Assembly: GCA_012838955.1 (NCBI GenBank)
Contig: DUOH01000049.1
Span: 1 to 64,000 of the forward strand
Length of the DNA stretch: 64,000 nucleotides
Direction: 5' to 3'
Source: Bacillota bacterium
Lineage (GTDB): Bacteria > Bacillota > UBA4882 > UBA10575
Shown here: piece by piece, positions 1,097-16,181 of the stretch
Layout: every line of letters begins with the position of its first letter
Numbering within the stretch: position 1 is the first letter of the stretch
Translations under genes and position numbers: made by a program
Notes under the pieces: model-generated
Seen by the model: the letters and a program-made list of their open reading frames with translations, nothing else
Databases searched by the model: none
What the model was told of the DNA's origin: nothing

Positions 1097-2299
1097 TTGA
1101 TAATCATATTACAGTTTTATTACAAAGCGGCTGAAGGGTCAGGAAAGATTCGCACCGGGCGCCTGACCGGGAACACCAGGGACGAGGTTATTCTTGAACT
1201 GAAAAAGAAAGGGCTCTTACCGATCAGGGTTAAAGAGATCCGTGGAGGCCAAGGCTTTTTTGACCTCCGGCGCTTTAAAAAAGAAGATTTACTGGCCTTT
1301 ACCCAACAGTTGACCGGCCTTTTGGAATCAGGAATCCAATTAAACAAAGCCATGGAGATTCTCGTCAATTTGCTGGCTGAGAATCCGTTAGGACCGGTAA
1401 TCAAGGAAGTACATCGCCTGATGCATGAAGGCGCTTCCTTCTCACAAGCGTTGGAGCGGAAGAAAGAAGTATTCGATCCGCTATATATCAACCTGGTGAA
1501 GGTGGGAGAGGCCGGTGGGTTGCTTCCCCAGGTGATGAAGAGGCTTTCTCTCGCTTTGGAAGCGGAGATTAATCTAAAGAATAATATCGTCTCGAATCTG
1601 ACGTATCCGGGGATGGTTTTGGCCTTAAGTATGGTGTCCACGATCTTTCTCTTGTGGAAGGTGGTTCCCCAATTTGAACTGCTTTTTGCGAAAGCCGGCG
1701 GGGAGCTGCCCCTGATTACACAGGTAGTTCTGAATTTCAGCCGGGGATTGAGCAGGTTTGGCCTTTTTCTTTTGGCGGTCATCCTCATTGCGGTGTTCGC
1801 CAGTAGACACTATCTTCTAACTCCTCAAGGGCGGCTGGCTTGGGATAGGTTTTGGCTGCGAGCACCGCTTTTTGGAGTAATCGTCCTCCGCCTTAATATG
1901 GCGGAATTCGCCAGGAACCTGGGGATGCTGTTAAAAAGCGGGGTTCCGCTGCTGGAGGGGCTCGGGCTGTTGAAGAAGACCATCAAAAACCAGGTGTTGG
2001 CGGGAATTATGGCAGATGCCGAAGCTGAAGTGAGGAAAGGCGGAAGCTTCGCCCGTTTTCTCTCCAGGCAGGAGCAGATTCCGTTCTTAGTCACGCAGAT
2101 GGTTGGAGTTGGTGAAGAAGCCGGCAATTTGGATGAGATGTGTGAGCACTTGGGCCGCCTCTACGAAGCGGACGCCAAGCGAAGAGTGGAGCGGTTACTT
2201 GCTTTACTCGGGCCTGTGCTTGTCCTCGTCTTGACGGGGATCATCTTCTTCATTGCTCTAGCCGTGATCTTGCCGGTGATGAGTTTCAATATAATCTAG
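1097..2299 (+). CDS. gspF: Type II secretion / type IV pilus inner-membrane platform protein GspF
   Basis: GspF/PilC is the polytopic platform protein in the inner membrane that couples the motor ATPase to pseudopilus assembly. The 400-residue length is typical. Two T2SSF domains are visible (about residues 62-185 and 265-387), each with the LL.SGI/VPL..GL pattern, and three membrane segments near 165-190, 215-233 and 366-393. The N terminus (FYYKAAEGSGKIRTG) matches the family opening. The start is TTG 1097; the site AAGGGCAG before it is weak. It is the first gene of a ten-gene operon. In most systems gspE lies just before gspF; here the preceding kilobase holds no ATPase, so the motor must be encoded elsewhere. 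Confidence 0.9.
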   Translation: MIIILQFYYKAAEGSGKIRTGRLTGNTRDEVILELKKKGLLPIRVKEIRGGQGFFDLRRFKKEDLLAFTQQLTGLLESGIQLNKAMEILVNLLAENPLGPVIKEVHRLMHEGASFSQALERKKEVFDPLYINLVKVGEAGGLLPQVMKRLSLALEAEINLKNNIVSNLTYPGMVLALSMVSTIFLLWKVVPQFELLFAKAGGELPLITQVVLNFSRGLSRFGLFLLAVILIAVFASRHYLLTPQGRLAWDRFWLRAPLFGVIVLRLNMAEFARNLGMLLKSGVPLLEGLGLLKKTIKNQVLAGIMADAEAEVRKGGSFARFLSRQEQIPFLVTQMVGVGEEAGNLDEMCEHLGRLYEADAKRRVERLLALLGPVLVLVLTGIIFFIALAVILPVMSFNII

Positions 2300-2365
2300 A
2301 TAATCCGGGTTTGGTTTACGTGCAGGCAACTTAATTAGCAAGTTAATTAATAGGAGGAATCAGTA

Positions 2366-2842
2366 ATGAGCGGGACGCTAAAAAGGAAGGATGAGGAAGG
2401 ATTCACCTTATTTGAGGTGATTGCGGTCTTATGTTTGATCGCAGCGCTCACTGCCGTAGTGGGGCCCTCCATCTGGAACCGGCTGGAGAGAGGACGGATG
2501 CAGACAGCCCAAGTTCAGGTAGCTATGTTAAAGAACTGCCTGAATGATTATCGCCTGGACATGGGGGTGTATCCTTCTACTGAGGAAGGTTTGGAGAGTT
2601 TGAGAAGACCGCCTTTCAGCGGCGCTGAACGCTGGAATGGTCCATATATTGACGGTCCGGTGCCCAAGGACCCGTGGGGGAACGATTATGTCTATATTTA
2701 CCCGGGAACCGGCGGAGCCAACACCTTTGAGTTATATTCTTACGGCGCCGACGGCCAGGAAGGGGGAACTGGAGTCAATGCCGATATTCGGGCGTGGACG
2801 GAAGCAGAAGAGCGAAGCTTTGAAGGGATTATGGAGTATTAA
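2366..2842 (+). CDS. gspG: Major pseudopilin GspG
   Basis: GspG subunits polymerise into the periplasmic pseudopilus. The prepilin signal is clear: short basic leader, cleavage between G12 and F13, and Glu at +5 (FTLFE), followed by a hydrophobic helix. The C-terminal half carries the GspG hallmarks YPSTEEGLESL, DPWGNDY and FELYSYGADGQEGGTG, which form the calcium-binding loop of the family. Length of 158 residues is slightly long. The ribosome-binding site AGGAGG before ATG 2366 is strong, in keeping with an abundant subunit. Maturation needs a prepilin peptidase, which is not in the window. Confidence 0.93.
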   Translation: MSGTLKRKDEEGFTLFEVIAVLCLIAALTAVVGPSIWNRLERGRMQTAQVQVAMLKNCLNDYRLDMGVYPSTEEGLESLRRPPFSGAERWNGPYIDGPVPKDPWGNDYVYIYPGTGGANTFELYSYGADGQEGGTGVNADIRAWTEAEERSFEGIMEY

Positions 2843-2888
2843 GGTGAGAACCGGCAAGCAACAGGATTCCGCTCCGGGCTTTTGAAAG

Positions 2889-3401
2889 ATGGAGCGCATT
2901 AAACGGGAAGATGGCTTTACCTTGGTGGAGACGATCGCGGTCTTAACAGTCCTCGTTTTGATCTACTCCTTGACGCTGCAAGGAATAGGCCGATCCCACC
3001 AGCGACTGGTGGAAAAGGCCGATCTACGGCAAATTACCGGTGATCTACAGTTGTTGCAGATGGAAAGCAGGATGAAGCCCGGCTATATTCTGCAGGCCGT
3101 CTTTTATCCTACGGCTTCCGGAGAAGGCTGCCGTTATCGGTTGGACTTCGGTTATCAGGTGGTGGACAGGGAAGTGAGGGGATTAAGACTGGCCGGTGAA
3201 GAGGAACGAAGAATCGTTCTTTATCGACCTGAATCTGTGGGGGAGGACGAAGAAGACACCGGAGGGGTACGGCGTTTTGCAGTAGACGAGGAGGATGACT
3301 CTTCCTTTGAGGCGGAGGAGATCTGCTTGGTCGGGAGTACGCAACGGGAATACTCCCTGGTGATCCAGTCCGGCGGCGAGTTGGAGGTGACTACCAGGTG
3401 A
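2889..3401 (+). CDS. Minor pseudopilin, GspH-like
   Basis: A type IV prepilin signal is present: cleavage predicted between G9 and F10 with Glu at +5 (FTLVE) and a hydrophobic helix to about residue 32. The rest is a polar, acidic globular domain of about 135 residues with no further motif. Position between GspG and the GspI-like gene suggests the GspH role (pseudopilus tip or minor subunit). The stop overlaps the start of the next gene (GTGATGA at 3398-3404), so translation is probably coupled. Confidence 0.75.
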   Translation: MERIKREDGFTLVETIAVLTVLVLIYSLTLQGIGRSHQRLVEKADLRQITGDLQLLQMESRMKPGYILQAVFYPTASGEGCRYRLDFGYQVVDREVRGLRLAGEEERRIVLYRPESVGEDEEDTGGVRRFAVDEEDDSSFEAEEICLVGSTQREYSLVIQSGGELEVTTR

Positions 3402-3781
3402 TGAGGGGAAAAGCGGGTCTGGGTGCGTGTTACCGGGAAGAGAAGGGCTTTACTTTGTTGGAGGTAACAGCGTCTCTGCTTCTCTTAGGGTTTGTAGCCG
3501 CCATGTTAGTCCCTGTTTTTTCCCAATTTCTCTCTTCCCGTGGCTACCTCTCCGACCGGATGGCTGCCACCTTTTGGGCTGCTTTGAAACTGGAAGAAGT
3601 AATCTGTGGAGCTGAACGGGCTCAGGAGGGATATTGCCGGGAACCATGGGAGCGGTTCGCCTGGCGCTATCATGAGGAACAACAGGACGAGTGGATCGTC
3701 CGGCAGGTAGTGACGGTGAAATGGGCGGACGGAACCGGTGAAAGAAGAGTTATAGTCAGCACAGTGCGACTTGGTGAATAG
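3398..3781 (+). CDS. Minor pseudopilin, GspI-like
   Basis: A 127-residue protein with a prepilin signal (cleavage after G17; FTLLE gives Glu at +5) and a hydrophobic helix, then a small globular part. Short length and order (third pseudopilin) fit GspI, which nucleates the tip complex with J and K. GTG 3398 or ATG 3401 may start it; both overlap the previous stop. The longer leader with one Cys is unusual but harmless to the signal. Confidence 0.7.
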   Translation: MMRGKAGLGACYREEKGFTLLEVTASLLLLGFVAAMLVPVFSQFLSSRGYLSDRMAATFWAALKLEEVICGAERAQEGYCREPWERFAWRYHEEQQDEWIVRQVVTVKWADGTGERRVIVSTVRLGE

Positions 3782-3823
3782 GATACTTGAATACGTTTTT
3801 CTGAGCTGAAATGGGAAGAGGTT

Positions 3824-4441
3824 GTGAAAGTGATGGTGGGCATGGATTCTGCGGGACGTTCCGGGTTCACCCTGCTGGAGGTGATGGCGGCCCTGACCTT
3901 AACCGGCTTGGTGATCATGGCGGCTTTAGCGCTGTATGGTAACAGCTATACAGTTTATCAACATAGTATGACCCGGGGAAAGCTGGAGAACGTCACCTTG
4001 TTGATTTACCAACGAGTTGCGGAGCAGTTGGGCGTGGCATACCAGTACCCCTTTTATGACCAAAGGTCTTCGTCTTTTCAAGGGACCGCCTCAGCTTTCC
4101 GGATGCTGACCGATGGAGAGAACGGCATCGCCATTGAGGAGTTGATGCTCACCGATGGGAAGCTGGTTTATAAGAAGGAAAGCCTAAGAAACCCGGAAGA
4201 AAAGAGGGAAGAGACGATTCTGACCGGTGTGACCGGTGAGTTCCAATATATAGATGAATCAGCAGAGGCTTGGCGTAGTGACTGGACGGAAGATAGAGCG
4301 TATCCTGCTTTACTACGCCTGGATTTACAGGTCCACAGCAAGTCAAACCGGAAGGACCGAGGGGGAGACAGTTCTCTCCGCCAGGACCTGCCGCCCCTGG
4401 TTTTTCCGATTATGGTTGGACGGGAGTACGGAGAGCTATGA
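3824..4441 (+). CDS. Minor pseudopilin, GspJ-like
   Basis: The prepilin signal has cleavage after G14 and Glu at +5 (FTLLE), followed by a hydrophobic helix and a domain of about 165 residues. Size and place, directly before the GspK-like gene, fit GspJ. GTG 3824 has a close GGAAGAGG. The stop shares ATGA with the next gene at 4438-4441, indicating coupled translation. Confidence 0.72.
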   Translation: MKVMVGMDSAGRSGFTLLEVMAALTLTGLVIMAALALYGNSYTVYQHSMTRGKLENVTLLIYQRVAEQLGVAYQYPFYDQRSSSFQGTASAFRMLTDGENGIAIEELMLTDGKLVYKKESLRNPEEKREETILTGVTGEFQYIDESAEAWRSDWTEDRAYPALLRLDLQVHSKSNRKDRGGDSSLRQDLPPLVFPIMVGREYGEL

Positions 4442-5577
4442 AGGGTTGGAATGGACTTCGCCGCAGTGGGGAGGAAGGCAACGCTCTGTTGATCGTCATT
4501 TGGGTTACTTTAGTCCTCTCCACCCTGCTCTTGGCGGCGCATAACCGGTTGAGTCTGGATCGGATCTTCTATGCGGAGCATGATGCTTTAGTCGTTGCCC
4601 GGCGGAGGAGCCGTGATCTCTTCCACCATGTCATCCTTTATTTGCAACAAGATAAGACTCGGTATGATACAAAGGAGGAGATGGTTTTTCCTGTAGAGGA
4701 ACTTCTTGATCCCGGCTTGTCCGGGGCGGAAGTGGAGTTGTGGGATGAAGGAAGCAAGCTGAACCCGAATAATGCTCCGTTACCGTTATTATCCGCCTAC
4801 TTTGCCGGAGAGGCGGGATGCTTCGATGCTGTGCAAAACCGGCTTTTTGGCGTAGACGGAGAAGCTGCTTATGGGCAGGTGGTACGGAAGGATTTTTTTC
4901 TCAGTAAAGCGGAGTTGAATGAGGTTTTCTTGACAGGTGGCAAGGGGAAGCAGGGGAAAGCTGAGTTCCGGCAGGACCTGACGGTTTTTTCTCCGGCCAT
5001 CTTAGGTTTGCTCGACGGGGAAGTACTGGTCTCTCTCCTTTTACGCTGGGGTGAAGAGTATGATCAGACCACTGTGTTAAGGATTATTGATGATTTTAAC
5101 CGGAACCGGAAAGACCTGATTAGCCTGGGCAGTTTTAACGAGTTGGCCGCCAGGTTACATCTGGATCTGGTCTTGGAAACGGACGACATCAATGACCTCT
5201 TAATGATGGAGGGCTGTCTTAATCCAAACTTGATCAGCGCGCGCTTCTTGGAAGCCCTCTTCAAGCAGAAGAATAACGAGGTGACATACGGTTTTTATGA
5301 TCTGGACGAATTCCGGGAGCAGAACCCATTTATCGAGAAGAGTGTCTTCGAGTATTACTTGCAAACACTCCATAATATTCCCGTGACCAGTGAGGAAATT
5401 TGGAAGATTTTTGCTTTGGAGACGAAGATCTGGGGAGTACGGATGCGGGTTCCTGTTTCCACCGGCCGTCTGCTGGAGACAACAGCTGTGCTGCGCAGGG
5501 AGAGGGATGAGTTGATGACAAAGAGCCGGATCAGGGTGTTGGCTTATGAAGAGCAGACAAAGATCAATGAGAGATAG
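4438..5577 (+). CDS. gspK: Pseudopilin GspK-like
   Basis: GspK caps the pseudopilus tip. At 379 residues it is the largest pseudopilin and, as is usual for GspK, lacks Glu at +5: the signal reads EEG then NALLI. The sequence ELWDEGSKLNPNNA is the conserved GspK stretch after the helix, and a later LNPNLISARFLEAL segment resembles the helix-hairpin-helix-like K domain. ATG 4438 overlaps the stop of the GspJ-like gene. Confidence 0.85.
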   Translation: MKGWNGLRRSGEEGNALLIVIWVTLVLSTLLLAAHNRLSLDRIFYAEHDALVVARRRSRDLFHHVILYLQQDKTRYDTKEEMVFPVEELLDPGLSGAEVELWDEGSKLNPNNAPLPLLSAYFAGEAGCFDAVQNRLFGVDGEAAYGQVVRKDFFLSKAELNEVFLTGGKGKQGKAEFRQDLTVFSPAILGLLDGEVLVSLLLRWGEEYDQTTVLRIIDDFNRNRKDLISLGSFNELAARLHLDLVLETDDINDLLMMEGCLNPNLISARFLEALFKQKNNEVTYGFYDLDEFREQNPFIEKSVFEYYLQTLHNIPVTSEEIWKIFALETKIWGVRMRVPVSTGRLLETTAVLRRERDELMTKSRIRVLAYEEQTKINER

Positions 5578-5606
5578 GTTTGGAGTTTTAAAAAGAAGGG
5601 ATCAAG

Positions 5607-7055
5607 ATGGGAAAATCCTGGATAGGTTTGGATCTCAGAAGAGACGGCTGGTGCATGGTGGAGGTCTGTAAGGGAGCGGGCACTCCAGTTATTAAGGAGT
5701 ATCAGTATGGCGCTTGGCCGTCGACGGATGCCGGGGAACAGCAGCGGATTATTGGTGATCTGGTCACCGGTCGGGTCCGGGACGGAAAGAGGGTGACGGT
5801 TTCTTTACCTTTGGAAGCCGGTGATTGGCGTCATCTGTCTTTGCCAGCTTTGCCCGGCTCCATGCTGAGGGAGGCTATTTTAAACTCTCTGGAGGAGACC
5901 GGCAGGGACCAGCCCTTTCTGGGTTTCAAAGAATGTGCCAGCAGTAGGCAAGGGAAGGAAATCGAAGCCTTTTTGTATGACCGGAGCATTCTCCAAGAGA
6001 GGGTCGGCCTTCTCTCGGCAGCGGGTTTAAAGGATGTGTATTTTTCCCCCAGATCCTGCGGGATTATTAATTGCCTAAACAGGCTGGAAAGGTACGCTGT
6101 GCAATCCGGGGCTTTCGGCGGCGGGCATTCGCTGCCAAGCCATTCTCGAGGGAACTATGCCTATATTGAGGTATCGGACACGGAGACGGAGATCGGGATC
6201 TTCAATAAAGACAGAATAGTCTTCTTACGGAGTTTACCGAATCCCTTAAAGCCGGAGCAGGAGTACAATCTGGACGCCTTAGGGGGAGAACTGAAGATTG
6301 TCCAATTGTTGCTCAGGAGAGAGAATGAGGATGCGCTCCTGCGCTGTTATTTACTGGGTTCAGCCACCGGCCTTGATTACCCGGATTTAAGGAGAACAGT
6401 AGCCGCTTGTTTTGGGTTGGAGGAGAGGCAGGTGGGGTACCCGCCCCTCTACGGTTTCCTACAGGGACTCGGAGAAAAGGGGATCAGTACCACCGGTGCT
6501 GTAGCCGCCACCGGTTTGGCCTTGGAGGGGATGGGCGCCGCCACTGGGTATGGGATCCGGTTCAACCCCGATGAAAGCATAGTCCAGCGCAGAAGGTTCC
6601 TCTATTCTGGGCTCATCGCCGCAGTAGGCCTCTGCTTTATCGTAGGGGGCGTCCTTTTTCAAATGGGTCTGGCGGCCAAGAAGGCAAAGGTGGAAGCAGT
6701 TTGGCAGCAGGAGAAGACTTCGTTGCTGGTCAAAGCAAATTTCTATGCCGACCTGCAAAAGAAGAGACTGGCGCCTCTGTGGTTTTTGCGGGAATGGACA
6801 AGCATCGCTCCGGAGGGAACCGTCCTGAACAGCTTGGTGATTGACGGGTCGGAAGTGAAGGAAGTCTCCGGGTATACTCCGGTCTTCGGTGAATTGTACC
6901 AGCGCTTACTGGCCTCCCCTTTTTTGAAAGGGCTGAAGGTCAGGGGGGGAATCACCACCGGAACGCATAATAGTGAAGCCTTTTATCTGGCCGGGCCACT
7001 GGGGGAGGTTAATCTTGAAGAAGCAGCAAAAACCCTATCAGAAGCAGGACAATAA
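5607..7055 (+). CDS. Fused PilM-PilN / GspL-like assembly protein
   Basis: The first ~330 residues have the actin-like PilM/GspL cytoplasmic fold (opening WIGLDLRRDGWCMVEV), followed by one membrane helix at about 332-352 and a PilN-like periplasmic part of about 130 residues. Type II systems have this architecture in GspL, whereas type IV pili split it into PilM and PilN. The protein would link the cytoplasmic motor to the periplasmic scaffold. Ribosome-binding site AAGGGATC before ATG 5607 is modest. Confidence 0.75.
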   Translation: MGKSWIGLDLRRDGWCMVEVCKGAGTPVIKEYQYGAWPSTDAGEQQRIIGDLVTGRVRDGKRVTVSLPLEAGDWRHLSLPALPGSMLREAILNSLEETGRDQPFLGFKECASSRQGKEIEAFLYDRSILQERVGLLSAAGLKDVYFSPRSCGIINCLNRLERYAVQSGAFGGGHSLPSHSRGNYAYIEVSDTETEIGIFNKDRIVFLRSLPNPLKPEQEYNLDALGGELKIVQLLLRRENEDALLRCYLLGSATGLDYPDLRRTVAACFGLEERQVGYPPLYGFLQGLGEKGISTTGAVAATGLALEGMGAATGYGIRFNPDESIVQRRRFLYSGLIAAVGLCFIVGGVLFQMGLAAKKAKVEAVWQQEKTSLLVKANFYADLQKKRLAPLWFLREWTSIAPEGTVLNSLVIDGSEVKEVSGYTPVFGELYQRLLASPFLKGLKVRGGITTGTHNSEAFYLAGPLGEVNLEEAAKTLSEAGQ

Positions 7056-7593
7056 AAAGAATTCCCGCTGGCCGCTGCTGGTAATATGCCTCAGCTTACC
7101 GGTTATTCTGTGGCGCTTTGCCGGACCGGCTCGGGATAGTCTTTTTTCGGAGAAGCAGAAACAGCCTCCGGTGATTTCAACCACGGTGGAAGTCGATAAT
7201 TTGCAGAATGAGATTCGCCGCTGGGAGGCCGGACTCTTCACCGGCCCGGTCGATCATGTGCTCGGTGAGATGATGGAGATCTCTCTGGAATTGGCAGATT
7301 TATCAGGAGTAGAGATTAAGGAGAAGAGGATGCATCCGCGGCTGGCGGCGCCAAGAGGCTGGGAACGAGCGGGGATGACGTTTACAGGGGAAGGCGCCTT
7401 TCAGGAGCTGGTTGACTTCCTGAACCTGCTGACTTTCTATGAAAAATATCTGGCAGTGGATAGACTTCAAGTGCATACCAGGACCGGAAGGAAACGCCGG
7501 GGCGAGGAGGCTGCTTTCGAAGAACCCAAGTTAAATTTTGAGATACTGATCTCCACTTTGCAAGTGGCAAAGGACGCGCGACTTGCCAAGTAA
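7015..7593 (+). CDS. PilO/GspM-like scaffold protein
   Basis: A short basic tail, one membrane helix (WPLLVICLSLPVILWRF) and a periplasmic domain of about 150 residues match PilO/GspM, partner of the PilN/GspL-like protein. The start is placed at TTG 7015 because GGGGGAGG at 7001-7008 lies six bases before it; a longer frame from GTG 6973 would overlap the preceding gene by 83 bp and has no good site. The gene overlaps the end of its neighbour by 41 bp, so expression is probably coupled. Confidence 0.65.
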   Translation: MKKQQKPYQKQDNKKNSRWPLLVICLSLPVILWRFAGPARDSLFSEKQKQPPVISTTVEVDNLQNEIRRWEAGLFTGPVDHVLGEMMEISLELADLSGVEIKEKRMHPRLAAPRGWERAGMTFTGEGAFQELVDFLNLLTFYEKYLAVDRLQVHTRTGRKRRGEEAAFEEPKLNFEILISTLQVAKDARLAK

Positions 7594-7604
7594 GGAGAAG
7601 CAGT

Positions 7605-8102
7605 ATGTCATGGCAGACTACAGGATGTTGGAAGGAGCGCAAGATGAAGGATAAGACAAGACAGATGCTTATTTTTTCCGGCGTGGTAGCCCTGGGCGGC
7701 TTGGCCTTCTTTATTTACTCTTTCCGGCAGTGGTGGACTTATGACTCTACTATACAAACCTCTCCGAACCCTGCGTTTGCTCTTCAAAACAGCGTCTCTA
7801 CGGATCGGGTGGAGAATCTCCCGGATCAGGTGGTGATCGTCGGTAACCCTTTCTTTCCTGAGCGGGAACGTCCCCGGACGCCCGAAGCCTTTCCCAGACT
7901 GCACTTTAACGGGCTGATCCTCGGCGAGCGCAAACTGGCCGTTTTGGAGGAGGCCGAACCTCCTTACCGGAGTTGGATTGTGCAGGAAGGGGATTGGATC
8001 TTCGGAGCGCAGGTTATGCGGATTAGCCGCCTTCAAGTGGAATTATCCAGGGATGGCGGAAGCATTATCCTAAAAATACAGGAGGAATCTACCGGGCAAT
8101 AA
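7605..8102 (+). CDS. PilP/GspC-like periplasmic linker protein
   Basis: A single N-terminal membrane helix (LIFSGVVALGGLAFFIYSF) is followed by a linker and a small beta-rich domain with LHFNGLILGERKLAVLEE and VQEGDWIFG, which resemble the HR domain of PilP/GspC that docks onto the secretin. It lies directly before the secretin gene, as PilP does before PilQ. Two starts have good ribosome-binding sites: ATG 7605 (AAGGAG) and ATG 7644 (GAAGGAG, removes 13 residues). The shorter form has the more typical membrane topology. Confidence 0.6.
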   Translation: MSWQTTGCWKERKMKDKTRQMLIFSGVVALGGLAFFIYSFRQWWTYDSTIQTSPNPAFALQNSVSTDRVENLPDQVVIVGNPFFPERERPRTPEAFPRLHFNGLILGERKLAVLEEAEPPYRSWIVQEGDWIFGAQVMRISRLQVELSRDGGSIILKIQEESTGQ

Positions 8103-8137
8103 TCCACCACACTATGAAACGGTTGGGAGGAAATGTT

Positions 8138-10681
8138 GTGGTAAGTATTTTACGATGGAAACGGTTTTACCTTCCTCTACTGGTCCTGGTGGCCTGCTGC
8201 TTCCTGTCTTTCAGTGGAGAAGCGGCTGGCGCCAAAAGGGATTTGGACTTTAAAAATACCGATCTCCATGATGTGCTGCGGGCTTTGGCCGAATTGGAGC
8301 AGGTTAACTTGTTGATCGATCCGGGGGTGCAAGGACGGGTAACCATCCACTTGCAGCAGGTCACCTTCGAGCAAGTCCTGAAGATCCTGGGAGAGGAATA
8401 TGGTTTCATGGTTAAACAGGAGAATAATTTATATAAAATCCTTCCCAACCTGGAATATGGAATTGAGCTTAAAAAAGAGGGGGAAATGTATACCGCTATT
8501 TTACAAGATGCCGCTTTAGGTAGTGTTCTCCGGAGAATCAGCGAAGATTCCAAGGTTAATATCATCTTTCCTTCCAGCGCTCAAGAACGGATTACCATTG
8601 CCCTGTATAATGTGGATCTGCCCACTCTCTTGGGCGTCATTGCCGAACGGGCCGAGTACAATATGAAAAAGGAGCATAATTATTATGTTTTCACCAAAAA
8701 AACCAGCCCGGCCGAGCATTTTTATATGCAATGGGAAGAGGGGTTGCTCTCCCTGGACTCCTCCAACGCGGATCTGAAAGAAGTGGCCAGGGAATTAACG
8801 GAGAGGACCGGCGTTTCGATCCTGACCGACAACGATTTGCAGAGCAGAGTGACGGCTTTCTTCAAAAGCTTGCCTTTGCAGACTGGTTTACATATCTTGT
8901 GTTCCACCAATAACCTCTCTCTAATCAGCGAAGGGGAGAAGGTCTATAGAATTACCAAAGGTATGGGCCGGACCCATATCCTCTATAAAGACGGGCTATT
9001 GAGTGTGGAAGTAAACAATACTGACATTACCCGGGTTTTGGAGGAGATCTCCCGGCAATGCGGGATCAACATCCTGTACGAACAGGAGGTCAGAGGGGCA
9101 ATCACCCTGCGTTTTCAGGAGCTTCCTCTGGAAACCGGCTTATATACTCTGCTGGAGGCGAACAACTTTTCTCTGGAGAAACGAACCGGCCATTATTTCG
9201 TCAGAAGGAGCCGGTCGCAACCGAATATGCGCATTGATTTCGACCAAGAAAGCAAATTATTCTATCTGGAAATGACCAACGCCCCTCTAGCACAGGCTTT
9301 GTCGGAGATAGCGCAGAAAGCAGGGGAGAATATCATCATCTTCAACCACGTGAATTACTCCGTGAACAACCTGATCGTCAGAGATGTTACTCTGGAAGAA
9401 GCCTTCGATTTTTTGCTGAAGGGAACGCCTTTTACTTATAAAAAAACGGACGGAGTATACTTAATCGGCGATGGGACGAATCTGCGGCCGGAGACTGTGG
9501 AGTTAATCGAATCCCGGCTGTACACTTTGGAGTATACCAACGTGGAATACGTCTTTAACAGCCTGCCCCCCAGCTTCCCCCGGGGCAATATCGTCCTCTT
9601 CAAGGAACAAAATGCTTTGCTGGTGAGCGCCGCTCCCGCCCTGCACCAGTTATTCGCGGGTTATTTGGAGACTGTCGACCGGCCGGAAAACCAGTTAAAG
9701 ACGGAGTTAATCAGGCTGTCTCACCTCAAAGCGGAAGAGGCTTTGAAGCTCTTTCCACCCAGTTTGCCCAAGAATGATATTTTAGTGATCAAAGAAGCCA
9801 ATGCGTTGGCGGTAACCGGAACCACGGTCCAGATCAATCGCGTGCAGCGATATCTGCAGGTGATTGATGTGGCAAACCCCTTGATCCTCTTTGATGTGAT
9901 GGTGGTTCAGATCAACAGGAGCAAGGATCGGAGTTTAGGTTTGACCTACTCTACAGATGCGGAAAATGTTAAAGAAAAAATCGTGTTCGACGGGGATCTG
10001 ATCGCGGATTTGTTAATCCCCGGCTCCTCCGCCACCACTAAAATCAAAGCCGGTCTACAGGCAAAGGTGAAGAATGGCACGGCCAAGCTCTTGGCCAACC
10101 CGCAGATTACAACTTTAAACGGATGCGCGGCTGATTTTAATTGCATCTCCAACTACCCACGGACGATTGAAGTCACCTCTTCCATCACCAACGCCGACGG
10201 TGAGCCCTTGACCGAGAAGAAACTGGTGGAGGTCAAGACCGGTATCCAAATGAAGCTTGTGCCTTGGATTTCAGCCAGTAATGAGATTACTCTGGAGATT
10301 TCGCCGAAATTCACCCAGACCATCGGAGGAATTGATCCTACGGAGTCGACAGATCTGCCTGCGACCAGCGAGAGTTCAACCCAGTCAACGATTAGGGTGA
10401 GAAATGGCGATACCATTGTCATCAGCGGTTTGGTGCAAACCCGAAATAGCATTGAAGAGAGGAAAGTTCCCATCCTGGGAGAGATCCCTTTGTTGGGCTT
10501 ATTGTTTAAAAGCAAAAGTGTGATGAAGGAAGAGACTGAGTTTGTGATCGTGATCACCCCGCACCTGCTCTCCGGCGCGGATCAAGGTGAGGGAGGAGAA
10601 ACAGGTGACAGTGAGCCGGATGTATTGCAAAAGTACAGTGAGGAGCTGCGGGAAAACGTGCAAATCTCTGTTGCGCAGTAG
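8138..10681 (+). CDS. gspD: Secretin (GspD/PilQ type) with five tandem STN-like modules
   Basis: Secretins form the outer-membrane gate of type II systems and pili. A signal peptide (basic head, helix ending SFSGEAAGA) precedes five repeats of about 75-80 residues, each with a short strand, a helix such as DVLRALAELE, a strand and a turn: about residues 40-110, 120-195, 205-280, 290-365 and 378-455 counted from ATG 8114. Two N-domains (VNSL/ LFPPSLPKND) and the secretin core follow, with the VPILGEIPLLGLLFK signature and a final EFVIVITP strand. Start GTG 8138 is preferred because GGGAGGA lies six bases before it; ATG 8114 lacks a site. Five modules are far more than the usual one. Its presence implies a diderm envelope. 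Confidence 0.9.
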   Translation: MVSILRWKRFYLPLLVLVACCFLSFSGEAAGAKRDLDFKNTDLHDVLRALAELEQVNLLIDPGVQGRVTIHLQQVTFEQVLKILGEEYGFMVKQENNLYKILPNLEYGIELKKEGEMYTAILQDAALGSVLRRISEDSKVNIIFPSSAQERITIALYNVDLPTLLGVIAERAEYNMKKEHNYYVFTKKTSPAEHFYMQWEEGLLSLDSSNADLKEVARELTERTGVSILTDNDLQSRVTAFFKSLPLQTGLHILCSTNNLSLISEGEKVYRITKGMGRTHILYKDGLLSVEVNNTDITRVLEEISRQCGINILYEQEVRGAITLRFQELPLETGLYTLLEANNFSLEKRTGHYFVRRSRSQPNMRIDFDQESKLFYLEMTNAPLAQALSEIAQKAGENIIIFNHVNYSVNNLIVRDVTLEEAFDFLLKGTPFTYKKTDGVYLIGDGTNLRPETVELIESRLYTLEYTNVEYVFNSLPPSFPRGNIVLFKEQNALLVSAAPALHQLFAGYLETVDRPENQLKTELIRLSHLKAEEALKLFPPSLPKNDILVIKEANALAVTGTTVQINRVQRYLQVIDVANPLILFDVMVVQINRSKDRSLGLTYSTDAENVKEKIVFDGDLIADLLIPGSSATTKIKAGLQAKVKNGTAKLLANPQITTLNGCAADFNCISNYPRTIEVTSSITNADGEPLTEKKLVEVKTGIQMKLVPWISASNEITLEISPKFTQTIGGIDPTESTDLPATSESSTQSTIRVRNGDTIVISGLVQTRNSIEERKVPILGEIPLLGLLFKSKSVMKEETEFVIVITPHLLSGADQGEGGETGDSEPDVLQKYSEELRENVQISVAQ

Positions 10682-10710: not shown

Positions 10711-11160
10711 ATGGGCGCAGTGAGAAATTTTCTTGAAAATTGTCTTTCGTCCCTTTTCTTTTTTTTAGCATTGCTTCTTTATGGAGAAGAGGCGGGGTTG
10801 TATTTTTCTTCCCTTAATAAACTTGGAGGATCGATTTTTCTTTTTTTATACGTATTATCATTAAGAATAAGAATATCAGGCGAAGGAAAATGGTTATTAA
10901 GAGCAGGTGGCGTTATTGTCATATATATACTTATGTTAATGTCTCCAACGCCCATCATCAGCGTCGGCCTTGCCTTGTTAATCCCGTTACTGGCTAATCA
11001 GCAAAAAAGGCATCAGGTATTCCGGATCGGGTTGGTATTCTTTATTTATCTCGTTTCCAGATCCTTTATTCCGCAGTTTTGCTTAATAGAGCAGAGCATC
11101 GCCGATAACTTTAATTATGGTAAAAGTAACAGATCCTCTTGGCGGAGTCCGGAGATTTGA
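10711..11160 (+). CDS. Membrane protein, probably 3'-truncated
   Basis: The frame encodes about 135 hydrophobic residues with four likely membrane helices (near 12-30, 39-56, 64-90 and 104-122). I do not recognise the family. It is markedly AT-rich against the secretin gene just upstream and has only a weak GGTGA site. The last 15 codons run into the RHS coding sequence in another frame and end at 11,160, so the original gene seems to have been cut near 11,115 by a deletion or recombination that joined it to RHS sequence. Any function is unknown. Confidence 0.5.
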   Translation: MGAVRNFLENCLSSLFFFLALLLYGEEAGLYFSSLNKLGGSIFLFLYVLSLRIRISGEGKWLLRAGGVIVIYILMLMSPTPIISVGLALLIPLLANQQKRHQVFRIGLVFFIYLVSRSFIPQFCLIEQSIADNFNYGKSNRSSWRSPEI

Positions 11161-14100
11161 GTATGACCCGATGGGCAATTTGGTAACGCAAGTTGACGAA
11201 AACGGCGTGGTTACCACCTATGAATATGACGCCTTAAACCGGCTTATCACGCAGAACGACGCCAAAGGAAACAAGACGCATTACGAATACAACCATCTTG
11301 GACTTTTGATGAAAAGAACAGACGCTTTAGGCAATGTCACTGCTTATGACTATGATGCGCTGGGTAGAATGATTAAGGAGACAGACCCCATAGGCGCGAT
11401 TCGTAGTTTTGAGTACGATCTCAACGGTAACTTGATCAAAGAAATTGACCAGCTGGGGTATGAAAAGACCTATCACTATGACGCTCTAAACCGACTGGTG
11501 GCGGAAGTAAACGCCTTGGGACAAACGACTACTTATGAGTATGACCCCAAAGGAAACCTTTTGCAGGTTATCAATGCCAAAGGGGATAGCTACAGTTATG
11601 AGTATGATGCCTTGGATCGCTTGATCAAAGAAGTTAACTACCAGGGCGGGACACAGTCCTATGCTTATGACCCCAATGGAAATCTAATCAGGAAGACGGA
11701 TTTTAGCCAAAAGCAAACGACTTACAAATATGATCAACTTAACCGGCTGTTGGAAACGGTCTTTGCCGATGGCAGTAAAAAGTTTTACACATACGATGCG
11801 GTCGGAAATATGCGCACCGCTATCAATGAAACAGTAACGGAAAAGTTCTACTACGATGATCTCTCCAGATTAGTCAAAGCGGAAACCATTGGACTGATGG
11901 GAGAAGGAACCGAGGTCGTGGAGTTCACCTATAACAAAGTAGGCGATCCCCAGGCTATTACCACCTCCTTATCAACTAGGGAAAAACGGAAGGTTAAATA
12001 CGCTTACGATGAACTTAACCGCCTCACTAAAGTTTCTCTACCGGATGGCGGAGAAGTGGCTTTTACTTATGATCCTTTAAACAGGGTGGTGGAGAGGAGC
12101 AATAGCAACTGGACGAAGACGAAATATACTTATACACCCAGGGGAGAAATAGAGAGTATCGTCAATTATGAGAAGAAGTACTGGGGCTTTGGCAAAGTTA
12201 TAAGCGCTTATGGCTATCTTTATAACGCCCGGGGGGAAAGGACCTATCAAATCCGGGGAAACGGCGAGATTACCGTGTATAAATATGATCCGGCGGGCCG
12301 GATCAAAGAGGCTTATTACCCTCTCCATGATCAGAAAAAACTCTTAGATCTGAAAGAAAGATATGAATATGGGTTATTGCCCCCCTGTAAAGGCCCGCAA
12401 TATTACAAATTTGACTTTAGCAGCATATATAAGCGGGAAGAAAGAGAAAACTTCCAAGAACAGATGAGGGAGTTCCTAAATAGCCTGAACTATGGTGAGC
12501 CGGATGATCCGGGAAGGCACGGCTGGGGCGGAACCGACGAGATTAGAATCCGGCTGGAGAGTAGATATATCAAGACTTTAGATCTTTCCCATGAAGATGG
12601 AGCGGCCTTAAATAAACTGTATGGAAGAATTGGAGAGTACCTGCGCTATCTCAACTTCCGGGATCTACGGTTCTGGGGGGAAGAGTTCGATTATGATCCG
12701 AACGGTAACATCACCGCCAAGCGTAACGGATGGGGGGAGATTACATACCAATACAACCGGAGCAACCAATTGACGCAGGCCGGGTTCAGGATCTATGAAT
12801 ATGACCCCAATGGAAACCTCAACAAGGAGATCTTCGGCGGATCCGTTAAAAACTACGAGTACAACCAGGAAAACCGGTTGGTCAGAATCGAAAACGGCAT
12901 CAAAATGCCTTTTAAGGACCAGATCTGCATAGGAAGACAGATAGAATACCACTACGATGCGTTAGGCCGGAAAGTAGGGAAAGAAGTCATTCCGTTTATG
13001 GGTCACGAAAAAGACGTAGAGTATTACATCTATAACGGACTGGGCATTGATGTGCTTCTGGAATACCGCGTAAAAGTCAGGATAGACCAGGAGCATGGCG
13101 CAGGGCCCCACCACGGCCACTACTACAAAAAGAATAGATTCAGAAATTATTGGCAATTTGGTCCGTGGTCGGCAGGAAGCAAGAGGGAAATCAGAGAATA
13201 TTATTACGGTAACGGGATGCTGCTGGCGGCCAAAGACATGGAGAAGGATTTGGAGCCTGGCTTTGGTTGTTACGGCGGATGGTACCGCAACCCATTGGAG
13301 AATGTCACCTTCTACCACCATGACGCTTTGGGTTCAGTTGTCATGCTGACCAACGACCAGGGACATGCGGTGGAAAAGTACGAATATGACGTATATGGTA
13401 ACGCCTACAGCGGCAAGTTCTCCCCCGCCAAAGAGCGGTTTGGCCATGGTTATCCCTTTGGCTATGGGTGTGGTTACGGATATGGATCTAGCGGTTGTGG
13501 CAGTAAACCCGGTAATGTCTATGGTTTTACCGGCCAAAGGTTCGAACCGGAGTCCGGACTGTATGCCTTTACCTACCGGCACTACAACCCGCAGATGATG
13601 CGCTGGCTCACCGTGGATCCGATTAAGGATGGACTGAATTGGTATGAGTATTGCGGCGGAGATCCGGTGAATTGGGTAGATCCAACTGGATTATGGGAAG
13701 AAAATATTCATTATGGAAGTGAAGAATACGGCGGTACATTGCAATGGGCTAAAGAGGTGGGCTTTACTGAAAAGCAAGCTGAAATTATTGCAAAGGCGAA
13801 CCAATTTGTAGATTCCCCCTCGTCAGGTAAATGTCCTATTCCGATTATTGGAGACCAGAGATATCACTTTAACACAAATCGCGATGCTGAATCCGGGTCA
13901 GTAGGTGATTCGCGAAAACAAGTTGCAGAGGAACATTTACAAAATGCAATTGCCTTACAAAAACAAGCTGATGCATTAAGGGAATCTAAAAAGGGTGGAG
14001 TGCTGAATATAATTGGTGATACGATTAAAGAATTTAAAGCAAATAAAATGGAGAAAGAAGCATTAAAGGAATTAGGAACTGGATTACATGCAATACAAGA

Positions 14101-14290
14101 CATCAGCGCTCATCAGGATCAATTTGTAGAAGAAGGCAGTATATTAAGAGTGGATTATTTACATCATTTAGGGGAAAAAGGGAAACAAGCAGATAATCCC
14201 TTGATACCAGGCACTGATACTTTGAATGAAAGATATTATCAAGCGCGCACTGATACTAAGGAATATTTGCAGAGGTTTAAAAATAGATGA
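11117..14290 (+). CDS. RHS/YD-repeat protein, 5'-truncated, with zinc-phospholipase-like toxin tip
   Basis: RHS proteins are secreted polymorphic toxins whose YD repeats form a shell around a C-terminal toxin. At least 15 YD repeats (YDxxGN, YDALNRL) fill residues 1-800 and the core ends with the canonical DPTGLW at 855-860. The 197-residue tip has YHFN (916-919), LGTGLHAIQDISAH (H991, D995, H999), HH (1016-1017) and KQADNP, the spacing of metal ligands in zinc-dependent phospholipase C / P1-nuclease folds. Thus it may cleave phospholipid or nucleic acid. The N terminus is missing: the protein starts inside a repeat, ATG 11,117 has no ribosome-binding site and a stop sits 27 bp upstream. No signal peptide is present, so the gene may be silent or await recombination. 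Confidence 0.85.
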   Translation: MVKVTDPLGGVRRFEYDPMGNLVTQVDENGVVTTYEYDALNRLITQNDAKGNKTHYEYNHLGLLMKRTDALGNVTAYDYDALGRMIKETDPIGAIRSFEYDLNGNLIKEIDQLGYEKTYHYDALNRLVAEVNALGQTTTYEYDPKGNLLQVINAKGDSYSYEYDALDRLIKEVNYQGGTQSYAYDPNGNLIRKTDFSQKQTTYKYDQLNRLLETVFADGSKKFYTYDAVGNMRTAINETVTEKFYYDDLSRLVKAETIGLMGEGTEVVEFTYNKVGDPQAITTSLSTREKRKVKYAYDELNRLTKVSLPDGGEVAFTYDPLNRVVERSNSNWTKTKYTYTPRGEIESIVNYEKKYWGFGKVISAYGYLYNARGERTYQIRGNGEITVYKYDPAGRIKEAYYPLHDQKKLLDLKERYEYGLLPPCKGPQYYKFDFSSIYKREERENFQEQMREFLNSLNYGEPDDPGRHGWGGTDEIRIRLESRYIKTLDLSHEDGAALNKLYGRIGEYLRYLNFRDLRFWGEEFDYDPNGNITAKRNGWGEITYQYNRSNQLTQAGFRIYEYDPNGNLNKEIFGGSVKNYEYNQENRLVRIENGIKMPFKDQICIGRQIEYHYDALGRKVGKEVIPFMGHEKDVEYYIYNGLGIDVLLEYRVKVRIDQEHGAGPHHGHYYKKNRFRNYWQFGPWSAGSKREIREYYYGNGMLLAAKDMEKDLEPGFGCYGGWYRNPLENVTFYHHDALGSVVMLTNDQGHAVEKYEYDVYGNAYSGKFSPAKERFGHGYPFGYGCGYGYGSSGCGSKPGNVYGFTGQRFEPESGLYAFTYRHYNPQMMRWLTVDPIKDGLNWYEYCGGDPVNWVDPTGLWEENIHYGSEEYGGTLQWAKEVGFTEKQAEIIAKANQFVDSPSSGKCPIPIIGDQRYHFNTNRDAESGSVGDSRKQVAEEHLQNAIALQKQADALRESKKGGVLNIIGDTIKEFKANKMEKEALKELGTGLHAIQDISAHQDQFVEEGSILRVDYLHHLGEKGKQADNPLIPGTDTLNERYYQARTDTKEYLQRFKNR

Positions 14291-14856
14291 AATTATATGT
14301 TACATATGTTATAGGAATAATAACTATTATTTCATTGGGATTGACAAATCTTCCATTATATAAAGAATTTGTACGACCGATTAAAATTCAAGTACTAGAT
14401 GCTTTCAATGATCAACCAGTAGCAAATGCTGTTGTATATTATAGAGTAGAAACCACGAGAATAAAGAATTTGTTAGGAATTCCAATAATCGATCCTATTT
14501 ATTATAGAGATGTAATTCAGGAAAAGTATGTTACAGATAATGATGGATTTGTTGATATCCCAAGACATAAAGTCAGCTTAGTACTGTATGAAAAAATCTA
14601 TCTTGAATATATTTATATAAATCTTGATTCTATAGAGAAAAATAACAACATCGAAGTTTTTTTTAAGAGACCCGTGCAAGAAGGAGTAAGGATTAACCCA
14701 ATAAGTTATTTAAAGGGTGTTGTGCTTCTAAGTTCTAAGGGAGATTTAAATTATGACATTTATGATTCAAAAAATTTTACAGTTATTTCTAACGAGAGGG
14801 GCCTATTAAAAGAAGCAGAGGAAATAATTGTACAACTTGAAAGACATGATTCATGA
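14287..14856 (+). CDS. Candidate immunity protein for the RHS toxin
   Basis: The ATG overlaps the RHS stop (ATGA at 14,287-14,290), the usual arrangement of toxin and immunity genes. The 189-residue product has an N-terminal membrane anchor or signal (VTYVIGIITIISLGL) and then a beta-sandwich-like domain with KIQVLDAFNDQPVANAVVYY and VTDNDGFVDIP, resembling transthyretin/carboxypeptidase-regulatory-like folds. That places it outside the cytoplasmic membrane, where a phospholipase would act. Base composition is AT-rich like the toxin tip, so the pair probably moved together. No named immunity family was recognised; the role is inferred from position. Confidence 0.6.
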   Translation: MKLYVTYVIGIITIISLGLTNLPLYKEFVRPIKIQVLDAFNDQPVANAVVYYRVETTRIKNLLGIPIIDPIYYRDVIQEKYVTDNDGFVDIPRHKVSLVLYEKIYLEYIYINLDSIEKNNNIEVFFKRPVQEGVRINPISYLKGVVLLSSKGDLNYDIYDSKNFTVISNERGLLKEAEEIIVQLERHDS

Positions 14857-15001: not shown

Positions 15002-16181
15002 GTGTGTTTAGTAGTGAGACTAATATTTCTGGTGTTATTGTTAATAGTTACTGTCTCAAACGTGACAAGTGCCGCCTATAGTAAAGAAGAAGTAAGGGCC
15101 TTGATTCGCGAAAAGAACTTTTCTGAAGTGGAAAAATATCTGGATGAGTTGCTGATGAGCAAGGAGCCTGGAGAAATATACTCCAAATATCGGAGTGCCA
15201 TCGTTACGCTAGAACAACAATGTGAGCTGGAGAAGGCTTTGGAGTTTGTGGAGAAATATGTAGACTGCTATCCGAATTATGAAGGGGACGCTTATTTTTA
15301 TAAAGAAAAAGGCAGGTTATTGTGTGATTTAAACAGATATCACTAGGCGATAGAAGTTTTTGAGGATTTTGTTTTTTAATTTTAAAGGAGATATCTTTGA
15401 AACATCGGCAAGATGGCGGCTGGGAATCATGTATTTAAGAACCCAAGAATATGAGAAATCCGAACAAAATCTGAAATTCTATATTGAGAAAGAAAAGAAT
15501 TATAACCGTTTCAATGAATATTTTAAAGCCTTAGACCTGGTTGATCTGTATTTTGCCTGGGGGAAGATGGAAGAAGCCAAGAAGATCATTGATGAAGGGC
15601 CGGAATTGTTCTCCAAGGACAAAGAAGACATTCGTGATTACTATTATGCCTATTATATCAAACAGTCGGAGTATTATTTCCTCCAAAAAGACTGGAAGAA
15701 CTATAAAAAAGTAAATCATTTGCCAGCGCCTCTTTTGTTAAGAGTTTTTATGGGGGGGATTACACGCCAAATACAAAAAAATGAACCGTGTATATAAATA
15801 CCGTCATAATGAGGATTTTGTCGATGCATATATTAACCACCGTTTATGGAGACACAAAGAGGTACTCCAGATTAACCTTGCTGAAGATGAGTTGAATAAA
15901 GAACAGAAGCGGGCTTGGCAGACTATGCAAGGAGTAGCCCACTATTGGCTGGATGATAAAGATAAAGCCGAGGAGTATTTAAAAGCAGCGAATAAAAAGG
16001 GAAACTTTTTGCTGGATGAAGCCTCCTATTACGCGGCGTTAATTGCATTTGAGAAAGGCACTACCATGAAGCGGAGAAAGAATTGAAGAACTACCGCTCG
16101 TTATTAACTAGTGATGTTTCAGAGGGTATCGAGTTATCCCGAAGGATTGACGCTAAGTTCGGGAGATTAAAATTATTGTAG
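15002..16181 (+). pseudogene. TPR-repeat protein, multiply frameshifted
   Basis: Pieces of one tetratricopeptide protein can be followed through different frames: a signal peptide and first repeats at 15,002-15,346, a TAG in NRYH(stop)AIEVFEDF at 15,344, repeats at 15,360-15,720, a run of seven G at 15,752-15,758 where the frame shifts, repeats at 15,781-16,060, and a last part (HYHEAEKELKNYRSLL) ending at TAG 16,179-16,181. At least three lesions exist, so it is a decayed gene unless the assembly is poor. Its original partner is unknown; it follows the RHS module. Confidence 0.75.

Follow-up and report, generated by a model that had tools for sequence, protein, structure and literature searches.

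The RHS gene at positions 11117-14290 of the 64,000-nucleotide stretch analysed here (contig DUOH01000049.1 of the Bacillota assembly GCA_012838955.1; hereafter the window) ends in a tip resembling zinc hydrolases, and the first residue of this tip, a Trp, lies exactly at the predicted RHS cleavage site. We consider it probable that this gene and the one immediately downstream form an RHS toxin–immunity module, in which the tip is a zymogen activated by RHS autoproteolysis and is blocked outside by a transthyretin (TTR)-like protein. An earlier note on this DNA had described the tip and its partner and missed the Trp, which is the most informative feature of the locus. The fold, the conserved ligands, the position of the Trp, the gene pair with its co-occurrence, and purifying selection were all computed here, and the features involved are as follows.

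11117..14290, forward strand: RHS gene, 1057 aa, with RHS repeats, RHS core autoprotease and C-terminal zinc-hydrolase tip.
13499..13693, forward strand: RHS-associated core (autoprotease), ending in DPVNWVDPTGL (TIGR03696 match and motif comparison with Rhs1/RhsA).
13616-13618 and 13679-13681, forward strand: two catalytic-type Asp residues of the RHS core (motif comparison).
13694..13696, forward strand: Trp immediately after DPTGL, the predicted P1' residue and putative neo-N-terminal zinc ligand W1.
13694..14287, forward strand: tip, 198 aa, phospholipase C (PLC)/P1 nuclease fold (PF20551, alignment, AlphaFold2, VIA-align).
Proposed zinc ligands of the tip: W1, H6 (13709), D40 (13811), H58 (13865), H132 (14087), D136 (14099), H140 (14111), H158 (14165) and E161 or D167 (14192).
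14287..14856, forward strand: immunity candidate, 189 aa, with an N-terminal hydrophobic anchor or signal (residues 1-19) and a transthyretin-like beta-sandwich (residues 25-189).

The RHS open reading frame (ORF) matches RHS_repeat (9.9e-73) and Rhs_assc_core (2.9e-21), and has the repeats, the core domain, the DPxG autoprotease motif with two Asp residues and the variable tip expected of an RHS polymorphic toxin. Both Asp residues are conserved across all relatives. The segment VDPTGLW begins at 13676, and the cleavage context is PVNWVDPTGL/W (the slash marks the predicted cut). Cleavage right behind this motif is established in characterised members of the group: Rhs1 is cleaved between Leu1342 and Ala1343 of DPLGL/A, determined by N-terminal sequencing (PMC8636562), and RhsA is cleaved after PxxxxDPxG[WLF] (PMC8765631).

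The tip opens with W-EENIHYG right behind DPTGL and contains YHFN (residues 57-60) and LHAIQDISAH (131-140), both as the earlier note had reported; the third motif that it gave, HH..KQADNP, is present as YLHHLGEKGKQADNP, with a looser spacing than was noted. An HxxxDx(3-5)H signature and the remaining set of zinc-ligand His and Asp residues are found, and in an alignment of eight relatives with identities down to 28%, D40, H58, D72, R74, H132, D136, H140 and D167 are invariant. Because D40, H58, H132, D136, H140 and D167 are among these, the His and acidic residues of the tip are not a chance assortment. An AlphaFold2 model with the relatives' alignment as input has a pLDDT of 83.8 and a pTM of 0.83, and VIA-align puts nothing but PLC or S1/P1-type enzymes among its best 21 chains (Z from 11.5 down to 7.5; 145-156 residues, rmsd 3.2-4.4), the next entry dropping to Z 6.0. 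The alignments run end to end, with Z scores of 9-11.5 for zinc PLCs and 7.5-7.9 for S1/P1 nucleases. By its modelled fold the tip is a member of the PLC/P1 nuclease superfamily, the likeness that had been suggested from its motifs. In these superpositions the first residue of the tip is matched with the mature N-terminus of the clostridial and Bacillus cereus PLCs (their residue 1), and also with S1 residue 21, which is the mature N-terminal Trp (PMC5201275).

Agreement from sequence families is weak. The isolated tip matches PF20551 (DUF6765) at 5.8e-7 and 29.9 bits (cut-off 26.6), the whole RHS protein reaches 23.9 bits, and the tested relatives of the tip score below the cut-off. No NCBIfam model matches the tip or its partner, a sequence search of solved structures gave no match for the tip-bearing protein or the partner, and no mention of DUF6765 was found in the open-access literature searched.

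The register of the Trp carries the argument. In S1/P1 enzymes the N-terminal Trp binds zinc through its main chain (PMC5201275), and in Listeria PC-PLC substitutions of W1, Phe excepted, reduce activity, while a single residue added before W1 inactivates the enzyme (PMC10576769). In the tip, the Trp coincides with the predicted cut and is matched with the first residue of mature PLCs. Using as background the residue after DPxGx in RHS cores drawn from 91 genomes of the phylum, with the other tips deduplicated, Trp occupies P1' in 10 of the 11 PLC-like tips carried by RHS proteins and in 6 of the 47 remaining tips (Fisher p = 1.5e-6), or in 6/7 when PLC-like tips are counted by family (p = 2.2e-4), p-values that overstate independence because the PLC-like tips are partly related. 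Unsuspected PLC-like tips turned up among the cores drawn (L032 and L058/L066), each starting with Trp; L140, which has an internal deletion, is a further one, and L032, without a Pfam match, was classed as PLC-like on the basis of motifs and an identity of 27-30% with L058. The exception, a Treponema tip, has Ala at P1' and retains the His at position 6. The first His is at position 6 in all eight compact tips vs 1 of 51 other tips.

The same spacing is found in relatives that have no RHS core. In 19 of 24 stand-alone PF00882 proteins of the phylum, translation starts at the codon that precedes the first His by exactly five (the His was picked by a simple motif, and one wrong-frame row was excluded); the start codons are ATG in 12, GTG in 4 and TTG in 3, often with a good Shine-Dalgarno sequence. 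This register holds the N-terminus of the stand-alone proteins as far from the zinc site as in the tips. Two stand-alone PF00882 genes, in L110 and L115, apparently start at ATT and CTG in this register behind strong Shine-Dalgarno sequences, and it is possible that these non-canonical starts are held in place by a requirement on the N-terminus. The exported protein L009 has a predicted signal cleavage AYA/W, and the loop that leads to the His is longer there. Start codon choice, signal cleavage and RHS autoproteolysis look like three routes to the same free N-terminus.

We propose that the tip belongs to the PLC/P1 nuclease superfamily as a hydrolase with three zincs, most likely a phospholipase attacking membranes from outside the cytoplasm, with lipid rather than nucleic acid as its probable substrate. 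Within the RHS shell it would be an inactive pro-enzyme because Trp1 is still capped by the Leu in front of it; the aspartyl autoprotease of the RHS protein would then cut DPTGL/W, freeing the tip and at the same time making a free N-terminal Trp, whose main-chain groups would complete the zinc-binding site. In the producer and its kin an outward-facing, membrane-anchored TTR-like immunity protein would bind and block the enzyme. With slightly more reserve we also favour a general form of this proposal, namely that RHS autoproteolysis acts as a zymogen activation that creates a zinc-ligand N-terminus, that PLC cassettes join the core without a linker at the scissile bond, and that their immunity proteins lie on the outward side of the membrane.

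The candidate immunity gene overlaps the RHS gene, its start codon overlapping the RHS stop codon (ATGA). Its AlphaFold2 model is of moderate confidence (pLDDT 74) and predicts a TTR/prealbumin-like beta-sandwich, with PDB matches at Z 7.8-9.2 to HIU hydrolase, CnaB-type domains, transthyretin and the TTR domains of carboxypeptidase D, the last two at Z 8-9; the overlap and the transthyretin likeness both agree with the earlier note. Its export, also claimed there, is inferred from a single N-terminal hydrophobic segment (residues 1-19), which may be either an anchor or a signal peptide that is removed. Each of the four genomes that have a close tip (G000, G403/L002, G355 and Treponema L003, representing two phyla) has the partner next to it, and one orphan homologue (L013:1390-1950, in G209) has no tip nearby or, by profile search, elsewhere in its genome, so that four of five partner occurrences are beside a tip. 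The two checks that the earlier note had suggested, on the fold of the tip and on the co-occurrence of the downstream gene, thus both favour its reading. G+C is 37.5% in the tip and 28.6% in the partner, compared with 46.8% in the RHS part and 48.9% in the window; exchanged cassettes are usually AT-rich in this way. NG86 dN/dS is 0.12-0.29 in the tip, which is under purifying selection, and 0.16-0.43 in the partner; the values are rough since dS is near saturation, and the partner protein is less conserved than the tip. Three short TPR-like ORFs in different frames follow the immunity gene (15002-16086) and are probably one decayed gene.

The closest relatives of the tip are in L002/G403 (same family; 76% identity), L005/G355 (same class; 54%) and L003 (Treponema; 39%). 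More distant RHS tips are L006, L007 and the truncated L010, and L008 and L009 are stand-alone exported proteins. The distant PLC-like RHS tips have other partners, all of them membrane proteins: L006 and L007 are followed by types with three or four helices, L032 and L058 by proteins with a long polar C-terminal domain. Because membrane-protein partners recur behind PLC-like RHS tips, damage at the membrane from outside the cytoplasm seems the likely mode of attack, and together with the predicted topology of the TTR-like partner this favours the earlier suggestion that the pair acts outside the membrane. Long-frame PF00882 or tip matches in G364, G337, G302, G066, G082, G086 and G151 are without RHS fusion, and no relative was found in the plasmids and viral contigs searched.

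Several further observations were made at these loci. The partners of two PLC-like tips in G011 (L135:3136-3876 and 6905-7627, minus strand) are membrane proteins that have long C-terminal polar domains and no Pfam match and are possible further immunity families. Behind the PLC/TTR module of L002 there is a tandem second truncated RHS module (L002:1838-2692), forming a cassette array, and its tip is NlpC/P60- or papain-like (HNAVLVG...NNCADLV). A group II intron-type reverse transcriptase (L103:1-867) is encoded immediately upstream of the L006 RHS gene. In the window, a membrane-protein ORF (10711-11160) that follows a type II secretion/pilus-like operon (1097-10681) enters the RHS repeats out of frame, in what looks like a recombination junction.

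Some of the evidence weighs against our proposal and sustains other explanations. The top Foldseek match of the tip is a clostridial zinc phospholipase C at an E-value of only 0.46, and the tip scores 14 bits with Zn_dep_PLPC PF00882 and 14.3 bits with Het-C PF07217, below the gathering cut-offs of 26.8 and 21. The tip could instead be an S1/P1-type nuclease that must reach the cytoplasm of its target, the TTR-like protein then being an accessory or a surface interceptor; nucleases of this fold do match it (Z 7.5-7.9), P1 nuclease has this W-x4-H spacing, and Zhang et al. left open whether Het-C activity is that of a phospholipase or a nuclease (PMC3482391). We regard this as unlikely, as PLCs fit clearly better (Z 9-11.5) and every PLC-like RHS tip examined has a membrane or exported protein as its partner, suiting an extracytoplasmic target. 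The Trp could also be a by-product of the RHS core sequence or of a cassette recombination site, the cut completing no active site. Junctions are inherited within a tip family, the tips are not independent (L058, L066 and L140 form one group and the window, L002 and L005 another), and 6 of 47 unrelated tips have Trp there too. That same background count rejects the simplest version, in which the Trp is a mere part of the RHS core, and the excess in PLC-like tips (10/11), a W1-H6 register that is fixed across tips of about 30% identity, and the occurrence of this register in stand-alone relatives without an RHS core leave the by-product explanation with only a small chance of being right.

A different question is whether this particular copy is deployed. 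No signal peptide, transmembrane segment or N-terminal delivery domain is present in the 1057-residue ORF, a statement that concerns this copy, and its start falls inside an RHS repeat, beside the out-of-frame membrane-protein ORF. The contigs of L002 and L005 likewise show only fragments of RHS genes, with a second tip in tandem in L002, whereas the second RHS protein of the same genome (3319 aa, with a different tip) does have a signal-like segment at its start. Because a delivery end is lacking and these relatives are fragments, the gene may be a stored cassette, a silent reservoir whose TTR-like protein is kept as immunity against kin; with the frame open over 1057 residues, both Asp residues intact and the tip under purifying selection, we put this just short of an even chance. 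It is compatible with activation by autoproteolysis, which concerns how the tip works. Finally, the TTR-like protein has no sequence family match, and TTR domains can bind cargo in secretion systems (PMC11148199), such that it might be an unrelated exported protein with no role in immunity. This we find quite improbable, given its place beside the tip in four of five occurrences in two phyla, the stop–start overlap, its faster evolution than the tip, and a G+C content (28.6%) like that of a transferred cassette. An orphan copy without a tip exists, and orphan copies are common among immunity genes.

A study of 2012 predicted PLC/Het-C-type domains in polymorphic toxins and listed no immunity protein for them (PMC3482391), and of the open-access literature searched only that study mentions both Rhs and zinc-dependent phospholipase C; with the terms searched, no link between RHS cleavage and an N-terminal zinc ligand was found there. 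If correct, our proposal unites two known facts, the precise RHS cut after DPxGL and the need of zinc PLCs for an exact free N-terminus, and would explain the exactness of the cut in PLC-type RHS toxins and constrain their cassettes to join the RHS core without a linker at the scissile bond. DPxGx/W-x4-H would then be a sequence rule for membrane-lysing RHS toxins that score too low in Pfam, and a toxin class so far listed without an immunity family would gain a candidate in the TTR-like partner.

Among known systems, the T6SS proteins Rhs1 and RhsA share with the window gene the PxxxxDPxGL autoprotease motif, the two Asp residues and the freeing of the toxin by a cut right after the motif (PMC8636562, PMC8765631), but their toxins are different, their cut only uncages the toxin with no known completion of an active site, and they have PAAR/VgrG-type delivery, of which none is seen here. 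The tip taken by itself, but not the whole RHS protein, matches PF20551 above the cut-off, and that Pfam family has no assigned function. With the zinc PLCs (B. cereus PC-PLC, clostridial alpha-toxins, Listeria PC-PLC) the predicted fold is shared across the whole tip and the first residue falls on the mature Trp1, although the tip is shorter and only 13-18% identical; its signature is HxxxDxxxH vs HxxxDxxxxxH in the canonical RHS-borne PLC tip L058. Tox-HET-C (Zhang et al. 2012, PMC3482391) has the proposed superfamily, the HxxxDxxxH signature and a toxin role in common with the tip, but its carriers are T2SS, T6SS and PVC and no immunity protein is listed for it (PMC3482391), whereas the tip at 13694-14287 has an RHS carrier, a smaller domain, a TTR-like partner and a Trp at the cleavage site. 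Listeria PC-PLC is itself a zymogen activated by N-terminal processing, and there a separate protease is used, whereas maturation of the tip is proposed to proceed through RHS autoproteolysis.
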